This document shows positions 32,220 to 49,098 of a stretch of 64,000 bases of DNA, piece by piece. The DNA lies in the NCBI GenBank assembly GCA_937868765.1, contig CALMNL010000004.1, positions 1,066,749 through 1,130,748 of the forward strand, given 5' to 3'. Every line of letters starts with the position of its first letter. The stretch's first letter is position 1. The notes under the pieces were generated by a model. The model ran no database searches and was not told the origin of the DNA. It was given only the letters and a program-made list of their open reading frames with translations. The stretch comes from an uncultured Desulfatitalea sp. (GTDB lineage: Bacteria; Desulfobacterota; Desulfobacteria; Desulfobacterales; Desulfosarcinaceae). The position numbers and the translations under genes were made by a program.

Positions 32220-33389
32220 ATGAACGTTCGCATCTCGGGTCGGGCGCCCCTCATGGCCGCCATTTTTCTGATCGCCTTCGTTTCGCTCTGGACCGCATGT
32301 TCGCAGAAAGAAGGTGCCCCCGTCGCCAGCGAGCAAAAAAACCTGCCGCCCATCAAGATCGCCGTGGTGGGCTCCCACAGCGGCGACCTGGCTTCGTACG
32401 GCATCCCTTCGGTGCGCGCGGCCCAGCTGGTGGTGGACCAGCGCAACGCCGCCTGCGGGATCGCCGGCCGGCGCATCGAACTGCTGGTGGAGGACGATGT
32501 CTGCAAGCCGGAACTGGCCGCCAACGCCGCCACCAAAGTGATCGGCGACGGGGCCCAGGTCGTGGTCGGCCACATCTGCTCGGGCGCCACCAAGGCGGCC
32601 CTGGGAATCTATAAGGAGGCCCGCCTGGTCGCCATGTCCCCCTCGGCCACCAACCCGGCGTTAACCCAGAGCGGCGAATATCCCAATTTCTTCCGGACCA
32701 TCGCCTCGGACGACGCCCAGGCCCGCCTGGAGGTGGATTTCGTGTTGGGTCGGCTCAAGGCCCAGAAGATCGCCGTGCTGCACGACAAGGGCGACTACGG
32801 CAAGGGCTTGGCCGAATTCGCCAAAGGCTTCATCGAAGCCGATCCGCGCGGCGCGGTGGTGCTCTTCGAGGGCATCACGCCCGGCGCGGTGGATTACTCC
32901 GCGGTGGTCAACAAGATTAACCAGTCCGGCGCCCAGGCCGTGATCTACGGCGGCTACCACCCCGAAGCCTCCAAGATCGTGTCCCAGATGCGCAAGAAGG
33001 CCATGACCATCCCCTTCGTCTCCGACGACGGCGTCAAGGACGACACCTTCATCAAGGTGGCCGGCGAATTCGCCGAAGGGGTCTACGCCACCGGCCCGGT
33101 GGACACCACGCGCAATCCCATCGCCATCGAGGCTGTGGCCGCCCACAAGGCGAAGTACGGGGAAGATCCGGGCGCCTTTTTCCTCAACGCCTACGCCGCC
33201 ACCCTGGCCCTGGTCAACGCCTTCGAGAAAGCCTGCGCCACCGACTACGACGCCATCGTCAAGGCCCTGCGCTCCGAGTGGGTCGCCACCCCCCTGGGCA
33301 TCATCCGCTTCGACGAACGCGGGGACGCCATCGGCGTGGGCTTCGCCATGTATCAGGTCCAGGGCGGTAAATATGCGGAGATCAAATAG
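32220..33389 (+). CDS. livK: Branched-chain amino-acid-type ABC substrate-binding protein (LivJ/LivK)
   Basis: ATG 32220 lies just after AAGGAGGAG. The 389-residue type-I periplasmic-binding protein has a lipoprotein-like signal (FVSLWTACSQ; the lipobox -3 Trp is unusual). The mature fold is typical: IKIAVVGSHSGDLASYG, the ligand-loop VVGHICSGATKAA, and PSATNPALTQ. It delivers Leu/Ile/Val or related amides to LivHMGF. It heads the five-gene operon, 12 bp before livH. Confidence 0.93.
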   Translation: MNVRISGRAPLMAAIFLIAFVSLWTACSQKEGAPVASEQKNLPPIKIAVVGSHSGDLASYGIPSVRAAQLVVDQRNAACGIAGRRIELLVEDDVCKPELAANAATKVIGDGAQVVVGHICSGATKAALGIYKEARLVAMSPSATNPALTQSGEYPNFFRTIASDDAQARLEVDFVLGRLKAQKIAVLHDKGDYGKGLAEFAKGFIEADPRGAVVLFEGITPGAVDYSAVVNKINQSGAQAVIYGGYHPEASKIVSQMRKKAMTIPFVSDDGVKDDTFIKVAGEFAEGVYATGPVDTTRNPIAIEAVAAHKAKYGEDPGAFFLNAYAATLALVNAFEKACATDYDAIVKALRSEWVATPLGIIRFDERGDAIGVGFAMYQVQGGKYAEIK

Positions 33390-33401
33390 CGGACGGTCGC
33401 G

Positions 33402-34310
33402 ATGAACTGGGACTACCTGCTATCGCTCTTCATGGGCGGCCTGACCCGGGGCAGCATCTACGCCCTCATCGCCCTGGGTTACACCATGGTCTACGGCATC
33501 ATCTCCCTGATCAACTTCGCCCATGGGGAGATCTACATGATCGGCGCCTTCACGGCCTTGATCGTCATCGGCGTGCTGACCCTGGCCGGCTGGAACGGCA
33601 TGGCCATCCTGCTGATCGCCGCCGCCGCCGCGGTGGTCTATGCCGCCGCCTACGGCTGGACCATGGAGCGCATCGCCTACCGGCCGCTGCGCCGGGCCCC
33701 GCGACTGTCGGCCCTGATCAGCGCCATCGGCATGTCCCTTTTTTTGCAGAACTACGTGCGCATGGCCCAGACCGCCAATTTCCTGCCCTTTCCCAATCTA
33801 ATCCCCGACTTCGCCTGCTTGAAACCGGTGGCCCACATCGTGCGCGCTTCGGAGATCGTGATCTACGCCGTCACCGCCCTGGTCATGCTGCTGCTCACCC
33901 TGCTCGTCAAATTCACCCGCATGGGCAAGGCCATGCGCGCCACGGCCCAGGACCGGGAAATGGCCATGCTCTCGGGGGTGGACGTCGACCAGGTCATCTC
34001 CCTTACTTTCATCATCGGTTCGGCCATCGCCGCCATCGGCGGGGTGCTTATCGCCTCGCACGTCGGCCAGATCAATTTCTACATCGGATTTCTCGCCGGC
34101 ATCAAAGCTTTCGTGGCCGCCGTGCTCGGCGGCATCGGCAGCATGCCCGGCGCCGTGCTGGGCGGCCTGGTGCTCGGCTGGACCGAAAGCTTCTTCACCG
34201 GCTATGTCTCCAGCGACTATGAGGATGTCTTCGCTTTTCTCTTCCTGGTGGGCATCCTGATCTTCCGGCCCAGCGGGCTATTGGGGCGCAAACAAACGGA
34301 GAAAGTATGA
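33402..34310 (+). CDS. livH: Branched-chain amino-acid ABC permease LivH
   Basis: This 302-residue integral membrane protein has about eight helices. It has the LivH start LTRGSIYALIALGYTMVYGI and INFAHGEIYMIGAF, plus the ATPase-contact segment GKAMRATAQDREMAMLSGV. It forms one half of the channel with LivM. Confidence 0.96.
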   Translation: MNWDYLLSLFMGGLTRGSIYALIALGYTMVYGIISLINFAHGEIYMIGAFTALIVIGVLTLAGWNGMAILLIAAAAAVVYAAAYGWTMERIAYRPLRRAPRLSALISAIGMSLFLQNYVRMAQTANFLPFPNLIPDFACLKPVAHIVRASEIVIYAVTALVMLLLTLLVKFTRMGKAMRATAQDREMAMLSGVDVDQVISLTFIIGSAIAAIGGVLIASHVGQINFYIGFLAGIKAFVAAVLGGIGSMPGAVLGGLVLGWTESFFTGYVSSDYEDVFAFLFLVGILIFRPSGLLGRKQTEKV

Positions 34311-34343
34311 TCAGAGTATTCATTACTTGCACGGAGGCAGGCA

Positions 34344-34404
34344 TGTGCGGCAAGCATTAGCATCCCTTGTTTCGAGGTGTGTGTCGCGCAGCGTTTGCCG
34401 CACA
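34344..34404. repeat. Inverted repeat between livH and livM
   Basis: TGTGCGGCAAGC (34344-34355) and GTTTGCCGCACA (34393-34404) pair at 11 of 12 positions across 37 bases. They lie in the only sizeable gap (129 bp) of the liv operon and could form an mRNA hairpin that adjusts livM-livG-livF levels. Confidence 0.6.
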
Positions 34405-34439
34405 CGCCGGGGAGTTTATCAATAAGCCATTAGGAAAAG

Positions 34440-35665
34440 ATGGACCCGAAAGAAGAAATCAAAAAATCATTCATCGCCGCCATCTGGTTCATGTTCCTGA
34501 CCTTCCCGATCATGGTCGTGCGCGTGGACACCATCGAGCATACCGTGACCTGGCGCTGGGAACGGCTGATCTGGGTGGGCGCGGCCTTCTTCCTGCTCTC
34601 CTTCATCTGGCGCCGCCTCCTCGACCGCAAGCTTACCGGCCCGAGCGCCACCGATACCGCCCCCGCGCATGCCGCCCCCCGCTGGAAGCATCTGACCGCC
34701 GATTCACGCCTCAAACGCCCGGCCCTGGCCGCCGCCGCACTCTTCTTCCTGGCCGTGCCCCTGCTCTTCTCCTGGAACAAAACCATCCTCGTCACCAACG
34801 CCCTGATCTATGTGGTCATCGCCCTGGGACTCAACATCGTCGTGGGACTCGCCGGCCAGCTCGTGCTCGGCTACGTGGCCTTCTTCGCCGTGGGGGCCTA
34901 CGGCTACGCCCTGCTCAACCTGCACTATGCCGTCGGCTTCTGGAGCGCCTTGCCCATCGGCGCGGCCCTGGCCGCGCTCTTCGGCCTGCTGCTGGGCTTT
35001 CCCGTGCTGCGGCTGCGGGGCGACTACCTGGCCATCGTCACCCTGGGCTTCGGCGAAATCATCCGCATCGTTCTGGAGAACTGGAACGAGCTCTCCTTCG
35101 GCCCCAGCGGCATCGACAACATCCCGCCGCCCGACTTCTTCGGCTTGATCCTGAACCTGCGCCAGACCCACATCGCCATCTACTACCTGATGGTGGTGTT
35201 GACGCTGCTGACCATCCTGGTGGTTTCCCGCCTGCAGCATTCGCGCATCGGCCGCTCGTGGGAAGCACTGCGGGAGGATGAAACCGCGGCCCAGGCCATG
35301 GGCATCGACACCACCCGTGCCAAACTCAGTGCCTTCGCCCTGGGCGCCTGCTGGGCCGGCATGGGCGGCGTGGTCTTCGCCGCCAAGCAAAAGTTCATCA
35401 ACCCCGGCAACTTCACTATCTGGGAGTCGATCCTGGTGCTGTGCATCGTCGTCTTGGGCGGCATGGGCTCCATCACCGGTGTGGTACTGGCGGCCCTGGT
35501 GCTGGTGATCCTGCCCGAAGCCCTGCGGGTCTTCGCCGATTACCGCTGGCTGGTCTTCGGCGCCATGCTGGTGCTCGTGATGGTCTTTCGGCCCGAAGGC
35601 TTGGTGCGCGCCCGGCGCCGGGTCTACGCCTTCGAACCGACCGAATCCGACAAGACGGAGGGCCC

Positions 35666-35669
<4 letters not shown>
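34440..35669 (+). CDS. livM: Branched-chain amino-acid ABC permease LivM
   Basis: This 409-residue permease has an N-terminal extension of about 80 residues with two extra helices, then the conserved core NALIYVVIALGLNIVVGLAGQ and GDYLAIVTLGFGEIIRIV, and SWEALREDETAAQAMGID as the ATPase contact. Its final codons overlap livG by 4 bp (ATGA). Confidence 0.95.
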
Positions 35670-36440
<771 letters not shown>

Positions 36441-36454
<14 letters not shown>

Positions 36455-37166
36455 ACCTTTGCTCAAGATCGACGACATCCACAGCTTCTACGGCAACATC
36501 GAGGCGCTCAAGGGCATCCGCCTGGAGGTGGCCGAAGCGGAGGTGGTGACGCTCATCGGCGCCAACGGCGCGGGCAAGAGCACCACCCTGATGTCGATCT
36601 GCGGCCTGACGCCGCCGCGCCGGGGGGCGATCTACTTCCAGGGCGAACCGATCCACGGCCTGGCCCCCCACCGGATCGTGGCCCGGGGTATTGTCCAGGT
36701 GCCCGAGGGCCGGCGCATCTTCCCCGAATTGACCGTGCTGGAAAACCTGGGAATGGGCGCCTTCCTGCGCCGGGACCCGCAGGGTATCAAAGCCGATCTG
36801 GACGACCTGCTCGGGCTCTTTCCCATCCTGGCCCAGCGCCGGCGCCAGCCTGGCGGCACCTTGTCCGGCGGTGAGCAGCAGATGCTGGCCATCGCCCGGG
36901 CCCTGATGGGCCGGCCGCGCCTGTTGCTGCTGGACGAACCCTCCCTGGGCCTGGCCCCCCTGGTGGTGCGGCGCATCTTCGAGACCATCGCCGCCATCAA
37001 CCGCGAACGACGCACCACCATCCTGCTGGTCGAACAGAACGCCAATCTGGCTCTCAAGGTGGCCCACCGGGGCTATGTCCTGGAAAACGGCCGCATCACC
37101 CTGGCCGCTGACGCAGCGGCGCTGGTCGCCGACGAACGGGTGCGGCAGGCCTATCTGGGAATTTGA
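36441..37166 (+). CDS. livF: Branched-chain amino-acid ABC ATPase LivF
   Basis: This 241-residue ATPase has Walker A GANGAGKST, VPEGRRIFPELTV, signature TLSGGEQQML, Walker B LLLDEPSLGLAP and VEQNA in the switch position, all normal for LivF. It ends the transporter operon, but the next gene (AlgB-like) begins only 31 bp later and may be cotranscribed. Confidence 0.96.
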
Positions 37167-37197
37167 AGCCTCAGTTGGAAATCGAAAGGCAAGCATC

Positions 37198-38565
37198 ATG
37201 GCGAAAACCGCCCCGCCCGAAACAGAAATCCAGCCCCTGAACGTTCTGGTCGTGGACGACGAAGCCAACATCCGCAAGACCCTTGCCCTGTGCCTGGAGT
37301 CCCGGGGCCACCGGGTGATCGCGGTGAGCAATGCCGGGGATGCTCGCCGGGAAGCCGACCGGCAGGCGTTCGACCTGGCTTTCGTCGACCTGCGCCTGGG
37401 CACCGAAGACGGGCTCGAGCTGGTCAGCGCCTTGCAAGCCATCGCGCCCTGGACCAAGATCGTGGTGATCACGGCCTACGCCAGCATTGACACGGCCGTG
37501 GGGGCCATGCAGCGGGGCGCCACCGACTATATCCCCAAGCCCTTCACCCCCCAGCAGGTGATGCTGGTGACTGGGCGGGTGGCCAAGGTGCGCGCCATGG
37601 AGCAGCGCATCGCCGTGCTCAAGGAGGACCTGGGCCGCCTCCACCCGGCGATCTCGTTCGCTTCCCAGCACCCGGGCATGCAACAGGCCATAGGGATCGC
37701 CCGGCAGGCGGCGCCTTCCGAAGCAGTGGTGCTGCTGCGCGGCCCCAGCGGCACGGGCAAGACCGTTCTGGCCCGGGCCATCCACAGCTGGAGCCGCCGG
37801 GCCCACAAGCCCTTCGGCACGATTTCCTGCCCCACCCTGAGCCCCGAGCTGCTGGAGAGCGAACTGTTCGGCCACGTCAAGGGGGCCTTCACCGGCGCAC
37901 TGCGCGATGCCCCGGGCCGGGTGGCGGCCTGTGAGGGCGGTACCCTTTTTCTGGACGAGATCGGCGACCTGCCGCTGCCCCTGCAGCCCAAGCTGCTGCG
38001 CTTTCTCCAGGACCATCAATACGAACGCGTGGGCGACGCACAGACGCGCACGGCTGATGTGCGGCTCCTGGCGGCAACCCACACTGATCTGGAAAAGGCC
38101 TTGAAAGAGGGTCGCTTTCGGGAGGACCTCTACTACCGCATCAATGTGATCCAGTTGGAGTTGCCACCGCTCAGCGAGCGGCCGGAGGACATACGACGCC
38201 TCGCCGAGGAGATGCTGGCCTTCTTCGGCGTCCAGAACCACAAGGTGTTCAAGGGATACAGCGACGAAGCCATGGCCGCGCTGCAAGCCTATGCCTGGCC
38301 CGGCAACATCCGCGAACTACGCAACGTGGTCGAGCGGGCCGCCATCCTGTGTGCCACCGAGCTCATCGGAACCAACCACCTTCCGGCGGCCATCGCGCCC
38401 CAGGCGCCCCCCGTGCGCCTTGGCGACCACCTCTCCCTGCAATCCATCGAAGAGCACCACATCCGCCGGGTGCTGGCCTCCACCCACTCCCTCCAGGAGG
38501 CCGCCGACATCCTCGGCATCGACCAGGCCACCCTGTGGCGCAAGCGCAAGCAGTACGGAATCTGA
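37198..38565 (+). CDS. AlgB-like sigma-54 response regulator
   Basis: ATG 37198 (GAAAGG upstream) gives 455 residues: receiver (phospho-acceptor D64 in VDLRLGTEDGL), AAA+ domain (Walker A GPSGTGKT, GAFTGA at 229-234, Walker B FLDEIGD, FREDLYYRIN) and a Fis-type HTH ending AADILGIDQATLWRKRKQYGI. From memory of the family it closely resembles Pseudomonas AlgB, notably LGRL..APW.., ARAIHSWSRRAHKP and the RKRKQYG end. It precedes a KinB-like kinase and the kdp genes, with a -24/-12 promoter between, so it probably activates kdp. Confidence 0.92.
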   Translation: MAKTAPPETEIQPLNVLVVDDEANIRKTLALCLESRGHRVIAVSNAGDARREADRQAFDLAFVDLRLGTEDGLELVSALQAIAPWTKIVVITAYASIDTAVGAMQRGATDYIPKPFTPQQVMLVTGRVAKVRAMEQRIAVLKEDLGRLHPAISFASQHPGMQQAIGIARQAAPSEAVVLLRGPSGTGKTVLARAIHSWSRRAHKPFGTISCPTLSPELLESELFGHVKGAFTGALRDAPGRVAACEGGTLFLDEIGDLPLPLQPKLLRFLQDHQYERVGDAQTRTADVRLLAATHTDLEKALKEGRFREDLYYRINVIQLELPPLSERPEDIRRLAEEMLAFFGVQNHKVFKGYSDEAMAALQAYAWPGNIRELRNVVERAAILCATELIGTNHLPAAIAPQAPPVRLGDHLSLQSIEEHHIRRVLASTHSLQEAADILGIDQATLWRKRKQYGI

Positions 38566-38580
38566 AAACCTTCGAGGCGA

Positions 38581-38629
38581 CCTTGCAATTTACAAGGCCG
38601 GTGGATACCCGGCCTTGCCCATCGCAAGG
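38581..38629. promoter_or_regulatory. Paired dyads, candidate activator-binding sites for kdp
   Basis: Two copies of CCTTG-N7-CAAGG occur at 38581-38597 and 38613-38629, exactly 32 bp apart (three helical turns). Their centres are about 119 and 87 bp before the expected start of the -24/-12 promoter. The inner half-sites also form a hairpin (38593-38617). Position and pairing fit enhancers of the adjacent AlgB-like regulator. Confidence 0.6.
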
Positions 38630-38680
38630 CGTGGCGGGCCTTCTCATATCCTAACCAATCGATAACACGGGCATTTCAGT

Positions 38681-38697
38681 CTGGCACACCCTATGCT
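38681..38697 (+). promoter_or_regulatory. Sigma-54 (-24/-12) promoter of the kinase-kdp operon
   Basis: CTGGCAC-ACCCT-ATGCT has the invariant GG (38683-38684) and GC (38695-38696) ten bases apart, with one departure (A for T) at the start of the -12 box. It is 35 bp ahead of the kinase ATG and directly downstream of an NtrC-family gene. Confidence 0.75.
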
Positions 38698-38731
38698 CGA
38701 CTATAAAAGCGAAAACGACGGGAGGCGAATC

Positions 38732-40594
38732 ATGATTGGCATCGGAAAAAAGCTCATGCTGGGGTTCGGCGGGTTGCTGGCCGTGGTGGTGGTGCTGGGG
38801 GTGCTGACCATCAACCAGATCGATGCCCTGGGCAATGCCATCGACGTGATTCTGCGGGAGAACTATCGCAGCGTGACGGCCTGCCAGGAGATGAAGGAGT
38901 CGCTGGAGCGCACCGACAGCGGCCTGCTTTTCACCCTGGCCGGACAGGATGCCAGGGGAGCGGCACTCGTCCAGACGCATCTGCCGAGGTTCCGCGCGGC
39001 CCTTGCGACAGCGCGCGGTAACATCACCCTACCCGGCGAAGGAGAGCTGGTGACACGCATCGGCCGGCTCTTCGAGCAGTACAGCGCCGCCATCCCGGCC
39101 GCGGTGAATCTCCGCCGGCCGCTGGAATCCCGGCGCAGCGATTACTTCGCCACCTTGCTGCCCCTGTTCGACGGCATCAAAGACAGCGCCCAGCAGGTGC
39201 TGCTCATGAACCAGGCCAACATGTCCGAGGCCAACAATGCCGCTCGGCGCCTGGCCGCCGCGGCCCACCGGCGCCTGCTGGGGGCCATTGGGGTCTCGAC
39301 AATGATAACATTGCTCTTCGGCTGGCTGGTGCACGGGTGGATTCTGCGCCCCGTGCGCCGTCTGATCGAATCGACCCAGCAGATCCGCCAGGGCAATCTC
39401 GACCTGGTGCTGGAGAGCAACGCCCGGGACGAGATCGGCCGTCTTTCTCGAGAATTTAACCAAATGGCCGCCGCTTTAAGGGCCACCCGCAAACAGGAAC
39501 GGTTGCACCTGGCACGCACCCAGCACGCCACCGGCGAACTGTTCAAGGCGCTGCCGAGCGCCATCGCGGTGCTCGATCTGGAAGGCCGTGTGGAGCTGGC
39601 CACGGAAACCGCCACGCGCCATTTCGGGTTGCGCCCGGGCGTGGCGGCGGGCGGCCCGGGGTTCGAATGGCTGTCGGAGTTCCGACGCAAGGCCCTGGAG
39701 GAGAACCGGATCGTGGCGCCCGGACGGGAAGAAGCGCTGATCCAGCGGTTCATCGAGAACCGCGAGCATTTCTTCCAGCCCTCGGTGGTCCCGATCCCCT
39801 CGGGTCCGGGATCTATGGAAGCCAGCGGCACGGCCCTAATCCTCAGGGATGTGACCCAGGAGATCGAGCAGCGCGAAATGAAACGCGGTGTAATCTCCAC
39901 GGTGTCGCACCAGTTGAAGACGCCACTGACCGCGCTGCGCATGTCCATTCATCTGCTGCTGGAAGAGCGGGTGGGCGGGCTCAATGCCAAGCAAACCGAA
40001 CTGCTCCTGGCGGCCCGGGAAGAGAGCGAACGGCTGGTGGAAATCATCGGCGACTGGCTCGATCTGGATCGAATCGCTTCGGGCAAGGCGCAGTTGACGC
40101 TGGGACCGGCGGCCCCCCGGGAGTTGGTTCAAGAGGCCGTGGCGAGCTTGCTGGCCGAGGCCAGGGACAAGGGAGTCGGGCTGATGAACGAAGTCTCCGA
40201 AGAATTGCCAGAAGTGCTGGCGGATGAATCTAAGCTCCGCCAGGTCTTCCTCAACTTGTTCTCCAATGCGCTGCGTTTCACTCCGCCGGGCGGCACGGTC
40301 CGCGTGCAGGCTTTCGCGGAAGAAGAGCGGGTGCGCTTTACGGTGCAGGACACCGGGGCGGGCATCCCGCCGGAGCACTTGCCGCACATCTTCGAACCCT
40401 TCTACCGCGGCGCTGAAGGCGACAACAAATCCGGCGTGGGCCTGGGGCTGACCATCGTCAAGCAGCTCGTCGAGGCCCATGGCGGCAGTGTCGGCGTCGA
40501 GAGCACCACCGGCCAGGGGACGACCTTCAGCTTCACCCTGGCCGTAAATCCCAACCTCGCCGGGAAACCGTCGCCGACGGCCAAGGAGGCCTGA
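38732..40594 (+). CDS. KinB-like HAMP-PAS membrane histidine kinase
   Basis: ATG 38732 follows GGGAGG and gives 620 residues. Two membrane helices (about 12-32 and about 188-212) bracket a helical periplasmic sensor, then come HAMP (about 212-265), PAS (about 275-385), HisKA with H393 in TVSHQLKTPLTALRMS, and HATPase_c (FSNALRFTPPGG, DTGAGIPPEHL, GVGLGLTIV). The H-box and layout match KinB, partner of AlgB. It replaces the usual full KdpD sensor at the head of this kdp operon, and its gene is followed directly (1 bp) by the 28-residue peptide gene. Confidence 0.92.
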   Translation: MIGIGKKLMLGFGGLLAVVVVLGVLTINQIDALGNAIDVILRENYRSVTACQEMKESLERTDSGLLFTLAGQDARGAALVQTHLPRFRAALATARGNITLPGEGELVTRIGRLFEQYSAAIPAAVNLRRPLESRRSDYFATLLPLFDGIKDSAQQVLLMNQANMSEANNAARRLAAAAHRRLLGAIGVSTMITLLFGWLVHGWILRPVRRLIESTQQIRQGNLDLVLESNARDEIGRLSREFNQMAAALRATRKQERLHLARTQHATGELFKALPSAIAVLDLEGRVELATETATRHFGLRPGVAAGGPGFEWLSEFRRKALEENRIVAPGREEALIQRFIENREHFFQPSVVPIPSGPGSMEASGTALILRDVTQEIEQREMKRGVISTVSHQLKTPLTALRMSIHLLLEERVGGLNAKQTELLLAAREESERLVEIIGDWLDLDRIASGKAQLTLGPAAPRELVQEAVASLLAEARDKGVGLMNEVSEELPEVLADESKLRQVFLNLFSNALRFTPPGGTVRVQAFAEEERVRFTVQDTGAGIPPEHLPHIFEPFYRGAEGDNKSGVGLGLTIVKQLVEAHGGSVGVESTTGQGTTFSFTLAVNPNLAGKPSPTAKEA

Positions 40595-40595
40595 A

Positions 40596-40682
40596 ATGCT
40601 GCTGGAGCTGCTTTGCCTGCTGGTCGGTCTGATCGTATTCGGCGCCCTGGCCGCGCTGGTCGCCTGGTGCGATCGCTTATAG
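40596..40682 (+). CDS. 28-residue membrane peptide upstream of kdpF
   Basis: ATG 40596 (CAAGGAGG upstream) encodes MLLELLCLLVGLIVFGALAA then LVAWCDRL: a single membrane helix with a short charged tail. Similar tiny frames ending in C(D/E)RL precede kdpF in several bacterial kdp operons as I recall them, but they are usually left unannotated. It has its own good ribosome site and sits 11 bp before kdpF, so it is very probably translated. A role as an accessory Kdp subunit is inferred. Confidence 0.7.
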   Translation: MLLELLCLLVGLIVFGALAALVAWCDRL

Positions 40683-40693
40683 GAGAAGAAGTC

Positions 40694-40774
40694 ATGATCT
40701 ACCTGGCCGGCATCGCCCTGACCATATGCTTGGTTTATCTCATCTATGCCATCATCCACCCGGACCGTTTCTAG
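40694..40774 (+). CDS. kdpF: Potassium-transporting ATPase subunit KdpF
   Basis: This 26-residue single-helix peptide (MIYLAGIALTICLVYLIYAI then IHPDRF) has the typical KdpF ending YAIIHPDRF. It stabilises the KdpFABC complex in the inner membrane. AGGAG precedes the ATG. Confidence 0.9.
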   Translation: MIYLAGIALTICLVYLIYAIIHPDRF

Positions 40775-40819
40775 CCGGCGGACAGGAGGCGGGTTTTCTC
40801 ATCCACAATGGAGGCCATT

Positions 40820-42496
40820 ATGGCGTTTCTTTTCATCATCGCACTTCTCGGGGGTCCGGCCTTGCTCTCCTGGCCGCTGGGACGGGGCATGGCCTGGGTG
40901 ATGGAGCCGCCCGCGACACCCGGCCGTTGGCGCGCCAGGTTTGAGGCATTGCTGCTCACATGCGGGGGCAGGGCGATCACCGTGGGGCAGGACTGGAAAC
41001 AATATGCCTTGTCTTTACTGCTGTTCAACGCCGTCATGTTCGCGGTGGTTTACCTGGTGCTGGTCTTGCAGCCGCTGCTGCCCCTCAATCCGGACGCCAA
41101 GGGGTCCATCGAACCCAGCCTGATCTTCCACACGACCGCCTCCTTTGTCACCAATACCAACTTGCAGCACTACGCCGGCGAAGTGACCATGAGCTATTTT
41201 TCCCAGCTCTTCGGGTTGATGTGGCTCCAGTTCATGTCGGCCGCCACCGGTATCGCCGCGCTCTCGGCCCTGGCCCGGGGAGTGGCGGGCCGAACCGTTC
41301 TGGGCAACTTCTACGCCGATCTGCTGCGGGCCACCTTGCTCATATTGCTGCCGCTGTCCGTCATCGTTGCCGCCCTGCTGGTGCTCGGCGGCCTGGTCAT
41401 GACCTTGCAGGGCGCGGCCATGGCCAAGACCCTGGAGGGTGCGGTCCAGACCATCGCCCGGGGGCCGGTGGCGGCCTTCACGGCCATCAAGCAGCTCGGC
41501 ACCAACGGCGGCGGGTTCTTCGGCCCCAACGCCACGCATCCTTTCGAAAATGCTTCATTCTTCACCAATGTCGTCGAAAGCGTCTGCATCGTGCTGATTC
41601 CCATGGCCAGCGTGTGGATGTTCGGCCGCATCATCGGTCGCCTGCGCCACGCCGCCGTGATTTTCGCAGTGATGGGGGTGCTGCTGGTGGTTATGGTGGG
41701 TCTGGCCAACACCTTCGAAAGCGCCTCGACGGCTGCCCTGAAAGGGTTGCCCGTGGCCCCCTCGGCCAACCTGGAGGGCAAGGAACTGCGCTTCGGTCTT
41801 CCCGCCGGGCCTACCTGGGGGGCGCTGACCACCGCCACCAGCAACGGCTCGGTGAATGCCATGCACGACAGCTTCAATCCACTCACGGGTCTGGTGGCAC
41901 TGGCAGGGATGTGGCTCAATGTCGCTTTCGGCGGCGTGGGCGTGGGCCTGATCAACCTGTTTCTCTACATCATCGTCGCCGTGTTCATCGGCGGCATGAT
42001 GGTGGGCCGAACCCCGGAATATCTGGGGCGCAAGGTCGAAACCCGCGAAATGAAATTCGCTCTGCTGGCCATCCTGATCCACCCCCTGCTCATCCTGAGC
42101 GGCACGGCGCTTTTCAGCGCCACGGCCTGGGGGGCGGCCACAGTGGGCAACCCCGGTTTTCATGGGTTCACGGAGATCCTTTACGAATTCACCTCGGCAG
42201 CGGCCAACAACGGTTCAGGATTCGCGGGGCTGACCAACAACACCGTGCCCTGGAACTTGGCCACGGGCCTGGTCATGCTGTTGGGGCGTTACATTCCGAT
42301 TGTTTTCCCGCTAGCCATCGCCGGCGCCTTGGCCGCCAAACCGGCCGCACCCGAAACTGCCGGCACGCTGCGCACCGACACACCTCTTTTCGGATTCGTG
42401 ATCCTGGGCAGCGTGCTCCTGGTGGGGGCGCTGCTCTTCATGCCCGTGGCGGTGCTGGGGCCCATAGCGGAGCATCTCTCCATGATTCATCCATAG
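40820..42496 (+). CDS. kdpA: Potassium-transporting ATPase subunit KdpA
   Basis: ATG 40820 (GGAGG five bases upstream) is preferred over ATG 40808. The 558-residue channel subunit shows the four selectivity-filter regions: TTASFVTNTNLQHYAG, LGTNGGGFFGPNATHPFEN, TATSNGSVNAMHDSFNPLTG and AAANNGSGFAGLTNNT. It carries K+ through the membrane and couples to KdpB. Confidence 0.98.
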   Translation: MAFLFIIALLGGPALLSWPLGRGMAWVMEPPATPGRWRARFEALLLTCGGRAITVGQDWKQYALSLLLFNAVMFAVVYLVLVLQPLLPLNPDAKGSIEPSLIFHTTASFVTNTNLQHYAGEVTMSYFSQLFGLMWLQFMSAATGIAALSALARGVAGRTVLGNFYADLLRATLLILLPLSVIVAALLVLGGLVMTLQGAAMAKTLEGAVQTIARGPVAAFTAIKQLGTNGGGFFGPNATHPFENASFFTNVVESVCIVLIPMASVWMFGRIIGRLRHAAVIFAVMGVLLVVMVGLANTFESASTAALKGLPVAPSANLEGKELRFGLPAGPTWGALTTATSNGSVNAMHDSFNPLTGLVALAGMWLNVAFGGVGVGLINLFLYIIVAVFIGGMMVGRTPEYLGRKVETREMKFALLAILIHPLLILSGTALFSATAWGAATVGNPGFHGFTEILYEFTSAAANNGSGFAGLTNNTVPWNLATGLVMLLGRYIPIVFPLAIAGALAAKPAAPETAGTLRTDTPLFGFVILGSVLLVGALLFMPVAVLGPIAEHLSMIHP

Positions 42497-42526
42497 ACAG
42501 GCCCGGAAAAAGCAAGGAGCGGTCAT

Positions 42527-44605
<2,079 letters not shown>

Positions 44606-44613
44606 GAGGAACT

Positions 44614-45198
44614 ATGCAGACCAAAACACGACCCACCCTAAGCTCTCAGCTTGCTGCCGGCGGCCGGATCATGCTGGTCACCCTGGCGATCTGCGGCCTG
44701 GGCTATCCTCTGTTGATCCTGGCGATCGGTCAAAGCGTGACGCCCTTTACGGCCAATGGCTCCCTGCTGCGCGATCCTGCCGGTCAGGTCGTGGGCAGCG
44801 CGGCCCTGGCCCAGGGGTTTTCACGGCCGGAATACTTCTGGCCAAGGCCTTCGGCCGTAGATTACAATGCCGCTGCGGCGGGCGGCAGCAACCTATCGCC
44901 CACCAACCCGGCCCTGCATGCCAGAGCCCAGGAACTGATCGGTCGACTGAACACCTCTCCGGCTATGCCGGTGCCCGCCGATCTGGTGACCGCCTCGGGC
45001 AGCGGTCTGGACCCGGACATCACCCTGTCCGCAGCCAGTTGCCAGGTGCGGCGAGTGGCCGCGGCCCGCGGTCTGCCGGAGGCGACCGTGGCGGCCCTGG
45101 TAGAACGGCATGCCCGGCGCCCAGGGGGTTGGTTGACCCCCGAACCGCTGGTGAACGTGCTCCTGCTGAACCTCGCATTGGATCGAGAGAACCCATGA
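44614..45198 (+). CDS. kdpC: Potassium-transporting ATPase subunit KdpC
   Basis: This 194-residue KdpC has one N-terminal membrane helix (about 20-42) and the periplasmic domain with RPEYFWPRPSAVDYNA, GGSNLSPTNPAL and SGSGLDPDITLSAA..QV.RVA. AGGAGG precedes the ATG and the stop overlaps the KdpD-like gene (ATGA). Confidence 0.97.
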   Translation: MQTKTRPTLSSQLAAGGRIMLVTLAICGLGYPLLILAIGQSVTPFTANGSLLRDPAGQVVGSAALAQGFSRPEYFWPRPSAVDYNAAAAGGSNLSPTNPALHARAQELIGRLNTSPAMPVPADLVTASGSGLDPDITLSAASCQVRRVAAARGLPEATVAALVERHARRPGGWLTPEPLVNVLLLNLALDRENP

Positions 45199-46340
45199 CC
45201 ATCCCTGACCATCGTGCCGAAAGCTTTCTGCGAATGATCCGCCGCGCCCGGCGGGGCCGGCACAAGATCTACCTGGGCTACGCCGCCGGCGTGGGCAAGA
45301 CCTATCAGATGCTCCTGGAGGCCCACCGGCTCAAAGCGGACGGCATCGATGTGGCCGTGGGCCTGGTGGAAACCCACGGCCGGGCCGAAACCGAGGCGCT
45401 TCTCGCCGGCCTGGAACAGATCCCTCGGCGCAAGCTCACCTACCGCGGCATCACCATCGAAGAGCTGGATCTGGCAGCCGTGCTGGCGCGGCGGCCGGCG
45501 GTGGCGCTGGTGGACGAACTGGCCCACACCAATGCGCCCGGAAGCGGAAACGATAAGCGCTACCAGGATGTGGAGGACCTGCAGGCGGCCGGCATCCACG
45601 TCATCTCAACCCTGAACATACAGCACCTTGAAAGCCTATACGAAACCGTGGAGCGCGCCACGGGCGTCAAGGTGCGCGAGCGCATTCCCGATCCAGTGGT
45701 GCTGGAGGCCGACCAGCTGGTCAATGTGGACATCACCACCGAAGATCTGCGCCGGCGCCTCGAGGAGGGCAAAGTCTACACCAACGAGCGCATCGAAACC
45801 GCATTGACCCATTTTTTCCTGCCCGCCAACCTGGAGCAGTTGCGCGAGCTGGCCTTGCGCGAGCTGGCGGCCCAGATCGACGCTCGCCGACGCGATCCCC
45901 AGGCCGACGAATCCTCCGCCAACTCGGACCAGGTGATGGTCTGCCTCAGTTCCCGCGGCCCGAACAGCGGGGCGCTGCTGCGCTACGCCTCGCGCCTGGC
46001 CGGCCGGCTGAACCGCAACTGGTACGCCCTTTATGTGCAAACCGCCAAGGAGGGACCTGCGGCCATTGACGCGGCCACCCAACGGATGCTGGCCGACACC
46101 TTGACTCTGGCCCAGCAACTGGGGGCCACTGTATTTACCTACAAAGGCGACGATGTGGTTAAGACCATCCTTCAATTCGCCAGGGAGCACCGCGTAGGGC
46201 ATATCGTCATCGGCACACCTGGCCGCCCCCCCCGCTTACGGCAGCGGTTGCGGGGTATCGGCAGCATTGTCGACCGGCTCATCCAGGAAGGCACCGGCAC
46301 CACCGTTGTGGTGCTCGACACCAAGCGGCTCGCCGGATGA
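45195..46340 (+). CDS. Truncated KdpD: cytosolic sensor plus USP domain only
   Basis: At 381 residues this holds only the N-terminal part of KdpD (normally about 900): the KdpD domain with Walker A GYAAGVGKTYQML and VALVDELAHTNAPGS..KRYQDVEDL (about 20-230), then a universal-stress domain (about 250-375; VGHIVIGTPGRPPRLRQRL). It ends naturally with a stop after VVVLDTKRLAG. There are no membrane helices, HisKA or HATPase, and no downstream KdpD remnant. It may lend c-di-AMP or nucleotide sensing to the KinB-like kinase. Stand-alone short KdpD forms are known in some bacteria. Confidence 0.93.
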   Translation: MTIPDHRAESFLRMIRRARRGRHKIYLGYAAGVGKTYQMLLEAHRLKADGIDVAVGLVETHGRAETEALLAGLEQIPRRKLTYRGITIEELDLAAVLARRPAVALVDELAHTNAPGSGNDKRYQDVEDLQAAGIHVISTLNIQHLESLYETVERATGVKVRERIPDPVVLEADQLVNVDITTEDLRRRLEEGKVYTNERIETALTHFFLPANLEQLRELALRELAAQIDARRRDPQADESSANSDQVMVCLSSRGPNSGALLRYASRLAGRLNRNWYALYVQTAKEGPAAIDAATQRMLADTLTLAQQLGATVFTYKGDDVVKTILQFAREHRVGHIVIGTPGRPPRLRQRLRGIGSIVDRLIQEGTGTTVVVLDTKRLAG

Positions 46341-46450
46341 GCAGCCGGCCAGAGGACCTCCCATGACAGCCAACGCCTTGCATTCCATGGATATCTGCAA
46401 TAATAGAAAAGCATCACCCACTGGAACCCCATAAATCGCGTGATGCCCCC

Positions 46451-47938
46451 ATGAACACTCTGACCGGCACCTTCTCGACTCCCAGTCCCATACCGCTGAA
46501 ACTCTTCGTGCGCACGGGCCTTTCGGCGGGCGTCGAATATGCGCCCATGGGGGAGTTCGTCATCGGCCGGGGTTCGAGCTGCCTGGTGCAGCTCAAGGAC
46601 GAGGTGGTCAGCCGCAGCCACTGCAGGGTGTTCTGGGAGCAGGGCCGGTGGTGGATCGAGGACCTGAAGAGCGCCAACGGCCTTTTCCTCGACGCGCAGC
46701 GCATCGACCGGCAGCCCATCGACGAACGGATCGTCGTGCACCTGGGCGCCGGCGGCCCGGCCATCGAACTGGCAACCGCACCGCCCGCGCCGCCGCCCCC
46801 GACACCGCCGGAGTCGGCGCCGCCGGTGCGCCAAACGCCGGCCGACCTGGATCACTACAAGGCCCATTACTTCGGCGACGCCGAAGCGCCGGCCGGCGAG
46901 CACACCATCATGGTGCGCCGGGCCTTCGCCGAAGTTCAGCAAAAGCAGCGCCGGTTTTACTTCGGCATCATCGCCGGGGTCGTCCTGCTGCTGGTCATAA
47001 CGTCGGGCTATGCACTTTACCGCCACGTGCAGTATGGCCGCCAGCGGGAGATCGCCGCCGATATTTTTTACAAGATGAAAGCCCAGGAACTCCTGCTGGT
47101 GCGCTTCTTGGCCGAGGCCGAGCAGCGGCGCACGACCGAATCTGCCGCCCGCGTCAAAGATCTGCGGCAGCGCCAGAACGAAATGCAAGCCAGCTACGAC
47201 CAGTTCACCGACACCCTCGACATCTACAGCAAGGGCCTGAGCGCAGAGGAACGCCTGGTGCTCAAGACGGCCCGGGCTTTCGGCGAGTGCGAGTTGATCA
47301 TCCCGGAAGACTTCCAGCGCACGGTGATGCAGTACATCGCCCGCTGGAAAGAGAGCGGCCGCCTGCAGCGGGCCGTGGTCCGCGCGAAGGAAAAGGGGTA
47401 TATCCCCATCATCACCCGCGCCCTGGCCGAACAGGGCCTCCCGCCCCAGTTCTTCTACCTGGCCTTGCAGGAGAGCGGCCTGGATGTGAATGCCGTGGGG
47501 CCGCCCACGCGCTTCGGCATCGCCAAGGGCATGTGGCAGTTCATGCCGGCCACGGCCGATAGATACGGCCTGCGCACCGGACCGCTGACCGAGGAAGCGC
47601 AGCCCGATCCGGATGACGAACGTCACCACTTTCAGCGCGCCACCCTGGCCGCGGCCCGTTACCTGCGCGACATCTATGCCACCGACGCCCAGGCCTCCGG
47701 GTTGCTGGTGATGGCCGCCTACAACTGGGGCGAAAACCGGGTGGTGCCGTTGCTGCAGAGCATGCCCCAGAATCCGCGCCAGCGCAACTTCTGGGAGCTG
47801 CTCGGCAAATACCGGCAGAAGATACCGGACGAAACCTACGACTATGTCTTCTCGATCTTCTCGGCCGCGGTGATCGGCGAAAACCCGCGCCTGTTCGGCT
47901 TCGATTTCGACAACCCCCTGGCAGGGGCCAAGCCCTGA
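46451..47938 (+). CDS. FHA-transmembrane-lytic transglycosylase
   Basis: This 495-residue protein joins a cytoplasmic FHA domain (about 20-108; FVIGRGSSCLVQL, VSRSHCRVFW, SANGLFLD) by a Pro-rich linker to one membrane helix (about 175-195). A helical periplasmic stalk and an SLT transglycosylase domain (about 320-470) follow: catalytic Glu in ALQESGLDVNAVG, KGMWQFMPATADRYGL, AAYNWGENRV. The FHA part reads phosphothreonine, so peptidoglycan cleavage outside may follow Ser/Thr-kinase signals inside. It is likely a regulated remodelling enzyme, possibly for a trans-envelope machine. Confidence 0.93.
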   Translation: MNTLTGTFSTPSPIPLKLFVRTGLSAGVEYAPMGEFVIGRGSSCLVQLKDEVVSRSHCRVFWEQGRWWIEDLKSANGLFLDAQRIDRQPIDERIVVHLGAGGPAIELATAPPAPPPPTPPESAPPVRQTPADLDHYKAHYFGDAEAPAGEHTIMVRRAFAEVQQKQRRFYFGIIAGVVLLLVITSGYALYRHVQYGRQREIAADIFYKMKAQELLLVRFLAEAEQRRTTESAARVKDLRQRQNEMQASYDQFTDTLDIYSKGLSAEERLVLKTARAFGECELIIPEDFQRTVMQYIARWKESGRLQRAVVRAKEKGYIPIITRALAEQGLPPQFFYLALQESGLDVNAVGPPTRFGIAKGMWQFMPATADRYGLRTGPLTEEAQPDPDDERHHFQRATLAAARYLRDIYATDAQASGLLVMAAYNWGENRVVPLLQSMPQNPRQRNFWELLGKYRQKIPDETYDYVFSIFSAAVIGENPRLFGFDFDNPLAGAKP

Positions 47939-48777
47939 CACCCCGCCTTCACCCCCGCGCGGGCATACAACTCATAAAAGTGGTGGGTCGGCCCGTGGCC
48001 CTTGCCGATGGCCAGGGCGTGGCCGATGGCGCCGGTGACGTATTGCTTGGCGCGGCGGACCGCCTCGGTGAAGGGACAGCCGCGGGCCAGCCAGGCGGCG
48101 ATGGCCGACGAAAAGGTGCAGCCGGTGCCGTGGGTATGCCGCGTGGCGATGCGTGCATCGCTCAGTTCGGTGAATTCCGCGCCGTCATACAGGATATCCA
48201 CCGAATGGTCGCCCCCCAGGTGACCGCCCTTGACCACCACCTTGGGCACGCCCATCTGCACGATGCGCCGGGCTGCCGCCCGCATCTGCTCCGCATCCTT
48301 GATCTCGGCGCCCACCAGCAGTTCGGCTTCGGGGACATTGGGCGTGACCACCCGGGCCAGAGGGAATAGCCGTTGGATCAATGCCTGGCGCGCGTCGGGC
48401 TGGAGCAGGGCATAGCCGCTCTTGGAGACCATCACCGGATCGAGCACCACCGGCGGCCGCCGGACCGAACCCAGGGCCGCGGCGATGGTTTCGATGAGCG
48501 CCACGCTGGAGACCATGCCGATCTTCACCGCCTGGATCTCGGTGTCTTCGAAGAGGCAGGTGATCTGATCGTGCACGATCTCAGGGGTCATCTCCTGGAT
48601 GGCATAGACCTTCTGGGTGTTTTGCACGGTCACGGCCGTAATGGCGCTCATGCCGAAAACCCCCAGGGCCTGGAAGGTTTTCAAATCGGCCTGGATGCCG
48701 GCGCCGCCCGAGCTGTCCGATCCGGCGATGGTCAGCGCGATGGGCAGACGCGGCAGGTTTTTCCGTGTGACAGGCAT
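47842..48777 (-). CDS. thiD: Hydroxymethylpyrimidine (phosphate) kinase ThiD
   Basis: ATG 48777 follows GGAGGTGAG and gives 311 residues. ThiD phosphorylates HMP and HMP-P in thiamine synthesis; ALTIAGSDSSGGAGIQAD binds substrate, PVVLDPVMVSKSG and HGTGCTFSSAIAAWLARG form the active site. The C-terminus runs about 35 residues past the normal end, antisense to the transglycosylase gene (97 bp convergent overlap). No TPP riboswitch motif was seen upstream. Confidence 0.95.
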   Translation of the reverse strand: MPVTRKNLPRLPIALTIAGSDSSGGAGIQADLKTFQALGVFGMSAITAVTVQNTQKVYAIQEMTPEIVHDQITCLFEDTEIQAVKIGMVSSVALIETIAAALGSVRRPPVVLDPVMVSKSGYALLQPDARQALIQRLFPLARVVTPNVPEAELLVGAEIKDAEQMRAAARRIVQMGVPKVVVKGGHLGGDHSVDILYDGAEFTELSDARIATRHTHGTGCTFSSAIAAWLARGCPFTEAVRRAKQYVTGAIGHALAIGKGHGPTHHFYELYARAGVKAGCQGLAPARGLSKSKPNRRGFSPITAAEKIEKT

Positions 48778-49098
48778 TTCTTTCTCACCTCCGTTGGAAG
48801 CAAAGCAGATCTTCTCGCACGACTCAGTTCCTATCCTGAAAAACGGTCGTTGCCAATAGGCCTGCGCCATCTGGTTGACACAGGGGCCGACCCGAAGCCC
48901 GCAAAGCAAGAATTGTAAGGGTATCGAGGCGGTTAAGCGCCGCGCCACGGTGGGCGCGTGAATTTTTTTATTACCCGGGCGCAAATTTTTGTACTTTTGG
49001 ATGCACTCATTCTGCACTCGCGAGCCAACCCTCCGTATCTGGAACTATAAAGGATCAAATTTACACCAGATGAAGGCCTCGGCATACACCATGGCGCC
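48778..49098. other. 321 bp thiD/surface-protein divergent spacer, mostly featureless
   Basis: After the thiD ribosome site I see no further gene. An AT-rich stretch near 48962-48995 and a direct repeat TGCACTC-N4-TGCACTC near 49000-49018 lie about 90 bp before the sigma-54 promoter and might bind its activator. The rest shows nothing. Confidence 0.4.

Follow-up and report, generated by a model that had tools for sequence, protein, structure and literature searches.

The systems described so far that come closest to the locus reported here are the kdp operon of Desulfovibrio vulgaris and the shortened forms of KdpD. According to the available part of Rajeev et al. 2011 (PMC3333781), the regulator DVU3334 of D. 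vulgaris was mapped to its own kdp operon, two further regulators target kdp, DVU3335/3336 were read as one split kinase, and orthologues of DVU3334 were reported from D. vulgaris Miyazaki and S. fumaroxidans alone. DVU3334 is also tabulated as a sigma-54 regulator of potassium uptake in the accessible portion of Kazakov et al. 2015 (PMC4641369). For KdpD, the available text of a further study (PMC11018627) describes the N-terminal domain as a serine kinase that alone phosphorylates KdpB and switches the pump off, reports that a short Deinococcus version responds to cyclic di-AMP (c-di-AMP), and states that kinase-less KdpD versions mostly go together with the absence of KdpE, their transcription control being left open. 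Here, a stretch of 64,000 nucleotides (the window) from contig CALMNL010000004.1 of an uncultured Desulfatitalea sp. was analysed for its kdp locus at 37198-46340. This locus very probably represents a potassium-starvation switch independent of KdpDE, in which a sigma-54 promoter and a dedicated activator and kinase would run kdp.

The genes lie on the plus strand in the order activator, promoter, kinase, small open reading frame (ORF), kdpF, kdpA, kdpB, kdpC and kdpD-N, the last encoding a stand-alone N-terminal part of KdpD (Table 1). The first-pass annotation had placed a sigma-54 activator, a -24/-12 promoter, a kinase and kdpFABC in one locus, and all these parts are confirmed; Pfam supports every gene product except that of the small ORF. 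The regulator has the hallmarks of the NtrC family (Sigma54_activat, GAFTGA loop, HTH_8 and the receiver Asp), and none of the 25 best among 114 named activator families reaches its cut-off for it. Judged from the sequences, sigma-54 control of kdp by this NtrC-type regulator and its kinase is strongly supported, and the earlier proposal that kdp would require RpoN and an activator is supported by linkage, promoter, enhancer, conserved catalytic residues and the single clade of activators described below.

A search with KdpD-N gave 299 relatives; the analysis used the 80 best, which biases the sample towards close relatives. At least 8.5 kb of sequence precedes KdpD in 51 of these 80 loci; the activator was present in 50 of the 51 and activator plus kinase in 49, so that the NtrC-family neighbours of kdp which the first-pass annotation had suggested searching for are indeed found in relatives. 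L021 has neither gene, the kinase frame was not recognised in L066, and the kinase counted for L046 is that of a second cluster. Upstream sequence is shorter in the remaining 29 loci, with an activator visible in 6 and a kinase in 8. By their recorded labels, loci having both activator and kinase belong to metagenome-assembled genomes (MAGs) of Thermodesulfobacteriota/Deltaproteobacteria, to Chlorobi including the isolate Chlorobium ferrooxidans, and to Hydrogenedentota, Aminicenantes and Lentisphaeria, with one MAG each labelled Riflebacteria, Verrucomicrobia and Proteobacteria.

The activators of these loci resemble the window regulator at 58-87% identity over the AAA+/HTH part, compared with 34-44% for 30 other activators of the same genome (30 out of 63 domain matches). 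In a tree of 94 rows, calculated by a quick method without bootstrap, the 59 module activators formed one clade (support 99) with all 30 own-genome activators outside it; L116 and the Kup-linked L120 joined this clade first (99), followed by L096 and L097 (99). Of 54 activators, 37 have the GAFTGA loop unchanged and 9 have GSFTGA in its place. When plasmids were searched for closer activators, every match was below 60% identity.

Within the phylum, 35 of 198 sampled genomes (the window's included) contained a KdpD above the family cut-off. There were 41 KdpD matches with E ≤7.0e-6, and stretches were taken around 37 of them, the window, the fragments G185 and G042:C356 and the weak G090 being omitted; two stretches of the window's own genome were added. 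A complete KdpD that includes the kinase occurs together with an OmpR-type regulator in L085, L086, L087, L089, L090, L107, L108, L111 and L112, and also, 1.7 kb apart, in L119; L092 has a full KdpD with kinase on a cut contig. The NtrC type was found in L096, L097, L098, L100, L101, L102, L104, L109, L115, L116, L117 and L120. Both designs are thus well represented in the phylum. The remaining loci are L088 (kinase-less KdpD with an OmpR-type regulator and a separate kinase), L091, L093, L094, L095 and L103 (KdpD of 655-689 aa with neither kinase nor EIIA domain and no regulator recognised), L099, L105, L106, L110 and L114 (KdpD plus EIIA at contig ends), L113 and L121 (a kinase like that of the window, no activator in view) and L118 (short KdpD, neither an activator like the window's nor kdpABC in view). 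None of the six sampled genomes of the same order has a KdpD above the cut-off, and the window locus is therefore patchy within its order.

Candidate -24/-12 sites were scored over 260 bases upstream of and 30 bases inside each gene, using a matrix whose weights were not fitted to these loci. Scores of at least 10 were obtained upstream of 46 of 57 kinase genes, compared with 11 of 299 control genes, and were rare upstream of the other genes (activator 2/48, kdpA 6/56, kdpB 2/61, kdpC 0/30, KdpD 3/78). In a wider test with 450-bp windows, a site preceded 55 of 67 kinase genes and occurred in 5.5% of random stretches. The usual position is about 38-51 bases upstream of the kinase start. In the window the site at 38682-38697 predicts a transcription start at about 38707-38708, in agreement with the -24/-12 site and the start near 38708 noted earlier. 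The start of the kinase itself is most likely at 38732, the residue at which relatives begin too; an ATG further upstream (38693) overlaps with the -12 element. Three loci (L008, L011, L014) have kdpABC in the reverse orientation, and there kdpA is preceded by an enhancer pair and a -24/-12 site of its own. None of nine KdpDE-type loci has a site of at least 10.5 within about 400 bp upstream of kdpA on the same strand, L087 showing only 141 bp of this region; L108 has one such site, but on the opposite strand. The genome encodes one copy of rpoN, and an EIIA-like ORF of 152 aa lies in the same 3.5-kb stretch (L082).

Upstream of the promoter, an enhancer with the consensus CTTGCA-N3-TGCAAG occurs in two copies. 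In the window these begin at 38582 and 38614, the T of the -24 element being at 38682; they thus lie 100 and 68 bp upstream of the -24/-12 site and 32 bp, or three DNA turns, from each other. Among 58 regions, the best palindrome matched at least 10 of 12 positions in 35 (1.0% of shuffles) and the second at least 9 of 12 in 31 (0.17% of shuffles), counts that are not an independent test because the consensus was read off those same regions. Over 1.77 Mb of loci, 52 pairs were spaced by 32 bp and 13 by 31 bp; most other distances occurred 1-7 times, those of 25 and 39 bp 12 times each. Fifty of the 68 pairs spaced by 31-33 bp have a -24/-12 site of at least 10 within 130 bp, compared with 3.6% of random places. 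The offset of the site from the pair is 50-54 in 26 cases and 60-64 in 18, one DNA turn apart, and 74-76 in 4. Among the 18 pairs with no near site, 11 precede KimA-like genes, 3 stand at kinases of turned-round loci, where the -24/-12 sites are farther off (about 120 bp), 1 has a site scoring 9.9, and the remaining 3 (L030, L042, L085) look like background.

The strict tandem pair was found in one of the 198 genomes, that of the window, at kdp; this pattern is too narrow to recover relatives. A relaxed tandem pattern gave in the same genome kdp and one different palindrome, TTGACGTTGTCAA. Single palindromes with at most one mismatch numbered nine in this genome and five in the reversed control, for which reason a wider regulon is not claimed here. 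We noticed, outside the window, a TTGACGTTGTCAA-like tandem palindrome with two copies about 31 bp apart at G000:C4:1393973-1394016, and perfect CTTGCA-N3-TGCAAG sequences at G000:C4:1268623 and G000:C5:298166/298186, less than 1 kb from two other sigma-54 activator genes, one of these two places having two palindrome copies 20 bp apart. At L048:3025-3297, a 91-aa KdpB-like piece on the opposite strand lies beside extra promoter and enhancer copies; it is perhaps a remnant of a rearranged kdp cluster.

The same regulatory genes also adjoin other potassium importers. In Chlorobi, an APC permease gene lies between activator and kinase, and the one tested (L020) had a single match in the PDB, KimA (E 1.1e-62). 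Twelve KimA-like loci have the enhancer pair (L020, L024, L031, L032, L038, L042, L046, L056, L059, L060, L061 and L071), spaced by 31-33 bp in 11 and by 30 bp in L031. A TATGTT sequence was seen about 30 bp after the second palindrome copy at all twelve. In L015 the space between activator and kinase holds TrkA and TrkH; an enhancer pair and TGGCACGACCATTGCT stand 1.7 kb upstream of trkA. In L120 and L121, Kup is found next to this type of kinase and a KdpD that has diverged (29-31% identity); the enhancer pairs before KdpD are 30 and 32 bp apart, and the -24/-12 candidates are at an unusual distance. Just upstream of the importer genes, a site of at least 10 was found for 0 of 6 Kup, 0 of 4 TrkA and 0 of 2 TrkH genes. 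In C. ferrooxidans (L046), kdp and the KimA-like gene are each accompanied by their own activator from the clade.

Several observations weigh against control of kdp by this circuit. In the window, the -12 half reads TATGCT, one base away from the consensus TTGC. Eleven of the 57 kinase genes have no site that reaches the threshold, and of the 46 kinase sites, four (L046, L056, L060, L061) fall in the 3′ end of the preceding KimA-like gene and are for this reason probably not promoters. The KimA-like genes with an enhancer pair have no -24/-12 site by the matrix, save a score of 12.0 in L020. L021 has kdpABC-kdpD with neither activator nor kinase nearby; the kdp cluster of L046 has an activator, but no adjacent kinase, enhancer pair or site of at least 11 before kdpA; and L096 and L097 have -24/-12 sites before kdpF and lack this enhancer pair. 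The GAFTGA loop is altered in the activators, out of 54, beyond the 37 exact and 9 GSFTGA cases. The promoter and enhancer counts come from related, non-independent sequences, and nearly all the loci are from MAGs.

The working of the switch may be depicted as follows: The membrane kinase (38732-40594) would signal to the NtrC-type regulator (37198-38565), presumably in response to potassium and by phosphotransfer. The phosphorylated regulator would bind the two palindromes upstream of the -24/-12 site, and RpoN-polymerase would make one transcript of the kinase, the small ORF, kdpFABC and kdpD-N. Since the kinase would then be part of the operon that it helps to regulate, the circuit is expected to show positive feedback. 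The most likely role of KdpD-N is to shut the pump off: at abundant potassium it would act as a serine kinase on the TGES serine of KdpB, and its Usp domain would probably make this step depend on c-di-AMP. This role as a brake is carried over from published work on the KdpD of D. geothermalis and E. coli.

KdpD-N is the only KdpD-domain match in the 5.36-Mb genome, and as a 381-aa protein of KdpD plus Usp with neither membrane nor kinase part it agrees with the earlier description of a KdpD cut to its cytosolic sensor. It scores 354.7 bits with NCBIfam NF038185 (KdpD-like non-kinase potassium sensor), below the curated cut-off of 550. Walker A and B are kept in the window protein, and Walker A reads GVGKT in it and in the six commonest variants (71 of the 87 rows shown). 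The serine of TGES in the window KdpB was taken as the counterpart of E. coli S162, and the genome encodes one diadenylate cyclase. An EIIA-like domain forms the C-terminal end of KdpD-N in 78 of the 80 relatives and is absent from L002, L012 and the window; it was identified in L046 by Pfam PTS_EIIA_2 and in the other relatives by BLAST likeness to the L046 domain. The motif [AGS]-x-P-H, which we take to be the one expected around the phosphorylated His of EIIA, is present in 81 of 83 KdpD-EIIA fusions.

KdpD-N might instead be the potassium input of the transcription circuit, that is, one part of a split KdpD that sets the kinase-to-phosphatase balance of the separate kinase. This is a tentative possibility. 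It would fit the eight loci (L015, L042, L056, L059, L060, L061, L071, L100) in which KdpD-N lies beside the same kinase with no kdpABC nearby and KdpB is not at hand, and it is in line with Rajeev et al., whose available text takes DVU3335/3336 as one split kinase (PMC3333781). KdpB may, however, be encoded elsewhere in those genomes. The Walker motifs and the TGES motif, kept in 63 of 63 KdpB-like proteins, are what a brake needs, and phosphorylation of KdpB by the N-terminal domain of KdpD alone is described in the accessible part of PMC11018627.

Residues 1-206 of the kinase were modelled as four helices (mean predicted local distance difference test score, pLDDT, 88.4), and the KinB sensor 4llc matched this model at rank 9 with a template modelling score (TM-score) of 0.78 on the target and 20% identity. 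Chemoreceptor sensors and Adeh_2942 (4k0d) match as well as or better than 4llc, and a sequence profile of the sensor had 4llc and 3kkb, presumably also KinB, as its best two matches, both weak (E 0.027 and 0.078). The likeness to KinB noted earlier thus appears to hold for the modelled fold, a four-helix bundle, but does not prove kinship. It is conceivable, if unlikely, that the kinase senses an envelope or osmotic cue rather than potassium, potassium uptake being one output among others. The modelled bundle does resemble chemoreceptor and KinB sensors, and the kinase has no KdpD-type membrane region, DUF4118 matches being located elsewhere in the genome; the module, however, adjoins four kinds of potassium importer (Kdp, KimA-like, Trk and Kup).

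It is improbable that kdp is governed mainly by a different promoter or regulator, be it sigma-70, an OmpR-type regulator encoded far away or several regulators together, with a minor part for the -24/-12 site. Three response regulators target the D. vulgaris kdp operon according to the available part of PMC3333781, and the genome studied here encodes OmpR-type regulators. A simple consensus scan nevertheless gave no sigma-70 promoter in 36400-41000, no riboswitch in Rfam matched 36000-47500 at gathering thresholds, and promoter and enhancer are conserved over several phyla. No full-length KdpD with membrane and histidine-kinase part was found in the genome, and no KdpE (OmpR type) was recognised in 33001-49000. 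The best genome match to the KdpE of a KdpDE-type locus has 40% identity, and eight near-full-length matches have 30-40%. There is hence no clear KdpE, though this falls short of proof of the absence that the first-pass annotation had stated, and an intact kdpDE pair that could control these genes was not found. A Deinococcus-type C-terminal half of KdpD was also considered; no OmpR-type regulator was recognised in the 3- and 10-kb stretches around the two DUF4118 proteins of the genome. The probability of a chance promoter match next to an unrelated regulator is next to nil. The motif scans do give sites in 5.5% of random 450-bp stretches, but promoter, enhancer and linkage are conserved in relatives and the activators form a single clade.

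On balance we favour, with some reserve, a wider reading in which a sigma-54 potassium-starvation regulon extends over several phyla: orthologous activators and kinases with a fixed enhancer would control exchangeable Kdp, KimA-like, Trk and Kup importers, and the KdpD-N/Usp/EIIA fusion would tie potassium, c-di-AMP and the nitrogen phosphotransferase system (PTS(Ntr)) to the shut-off of the pump. For many loci, the dedicated sigma-54 circuit appears to answer how kdp transcription is controlled, and if so, potassium uptake would depend on RpoN. The short DNA signature allows a search for such control in other genomes, and KimA-like, Trk and Kup genes are pointed to as candidates for the same control. 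There is an old link between RpoN, PTS(Ntr) and potassium, and the EIIA-KdpD sensor fusion bears on it.

Table 1. Features of the kdp locus, in coordinates of the window.
Feature	Position	Strand	Description
NtrC-family response regulator (sigma-54 activator)	37198..38565	+	Receiver, Sigma54_activat (AAA+) with GAFTGA loop, Fis-type HTH_8 ending GIDQATLWRKRKQYGI
Enhancer palindrome 1	38582..38596	.	CTTGCAATTTACAAG; 11/12 consensus bases
Enhancer palindrome 2	38614..38628	.	CTTGCCCATCGCAAG; 10/12 consensus bases; 32 bp after palindrome 1
Predicted -24/-12 sigma-54 promoter	38682..38697	+	TGGCACACCCTATGCT; matrix score 14.7; predicted start ~38707-38708
Sensor histidine kinase	38732..40594	+	Four-helix-bundle N-terminal sensor (modelled), HAMP, PAS, HisKA, HATPase_c
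Small hydrophobic ORF	40596..40682	+	28 aa, end CDRL; directly 5′ of kdpF; no family
kdpF	40694..40774	+	Potass_KdpF, 23.5 bits, above cut-off
kdpA	40820..42496	+	Pfam/family profile matches
kdpB	42527..44605	+	Family matches; TGES motif present
kdpC	44614..45198	+	Pfam/family profile matches
Stand-alone KdpD-N	45195..46340	+	381 aa; KdpD domain (Walker A and B) and Usp; no histidine-kinase part, no EIIA

The 28-aa ORF, which had no family match, is possibly an unannotated subunit. Neither this ORF nor the two-site enhancer appears in the first-pass annotation, which could not have revealed the occurrence in other phyla either. ORFs like it, ending in C-D/E-R/K-I/L and located 5′ of kdpF or kdpA, were picked up by a loose pattern in 17 of 61 NtrC-type loci, and similar ones were seen by eye before the kdp genes of L096 and L097. 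Around the locus (36441-37198), the activator gene begins 31 bp downstream of a livF-like gene of a branched-chain amino acid ABC transporter operon; a simple scan of the sequence between them gave no sigma-70-like site and no terminator on the plus strand. Given this short distance, transcription of the activator may come by read-through from the livF operon. Just 3′ of kdpD-N, at 46451-47938, one protein joins an FHA domain to a lytic transglycosylase (SLT) domain.

Among known systems, KdpDE of E. coli likewise controls kdpFABC and shares the KdpD domain and Usp; the window, by contrast, lacks a full KdpD and any clear KdpE, and it has a promoter of sigma-54 type and another kind of kinase. 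AlgB/KinB of Pseudomonas, an NtrC-type regulator with a kinase that has a four-helix-bundle sensor, governs alginate. It has in common with the window an NtrC-type regulator with a kinase; the modelled sensor bundle of the window matches the fold of KinB 4llc, as it does other receptors, at low sequence identity of the sensor. The atypical serine kinase KdpD (D. geothermalis KdpD/Usp and E. coli KdpD) shares with the window KdpD plus Usp, Walker A/B and the TGES of KdpB, whereas most relatives of the window KdpD-N add an EIIA domain. As far as its available text goes, the split Kdp system of Deinococcus radiodurans (PMC5716572) also has a stand-alone KdpD-N with pump genes and a separate kinase, its regulator being compared with KdpE (23.9% identity) and its kinase taking the place of the C-terminal half of KdpD; the window regulator is instead of NtrC type, the kinase has HAMP and PAS, and the two DUF4118 matches lie elsewhere in the genome.

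The nearest counterpart is DVU3334-DVU3339 of D. vulgaris, which, in the available parts of PMC3333781 and PMC4641369, comprises a GAFTGA sigma-54 regulator, a separate kinase, a protein with potassium-sensor domain and UspA, and kdpFABC. The gene order there differs, being kdpFABC, KdpD-N, kinase and regulator as deduced from the locus numbers; the activators of L096 and L097, which have this order, fall in a sister branch. Beyond these two papers, no sigma-54 potassium regulon, KdpD-EIIA fusion or enhancer of this kind was found in titles and abstract openings, with incomplete coverage, and the main text of a 2025 survey of sigma-54 regulons (PMC12316311) does not contain 'kdp', 'potassium' or 'trkA'. 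The first-pass annotation had presented the locus as a design different from the textbook sigma-70/KdpDE circuit; the comparative evidence agrees with this difference, but the design is not wholly novel, since with DVU3334 published for D. vulgaris the principle of sigma-54 control of kdp was already known. What this analysis newly adds is the occurrence in several phyla, the code of the enhancer, the fusion of KdpD-N with EIIA and the interchange of importers.

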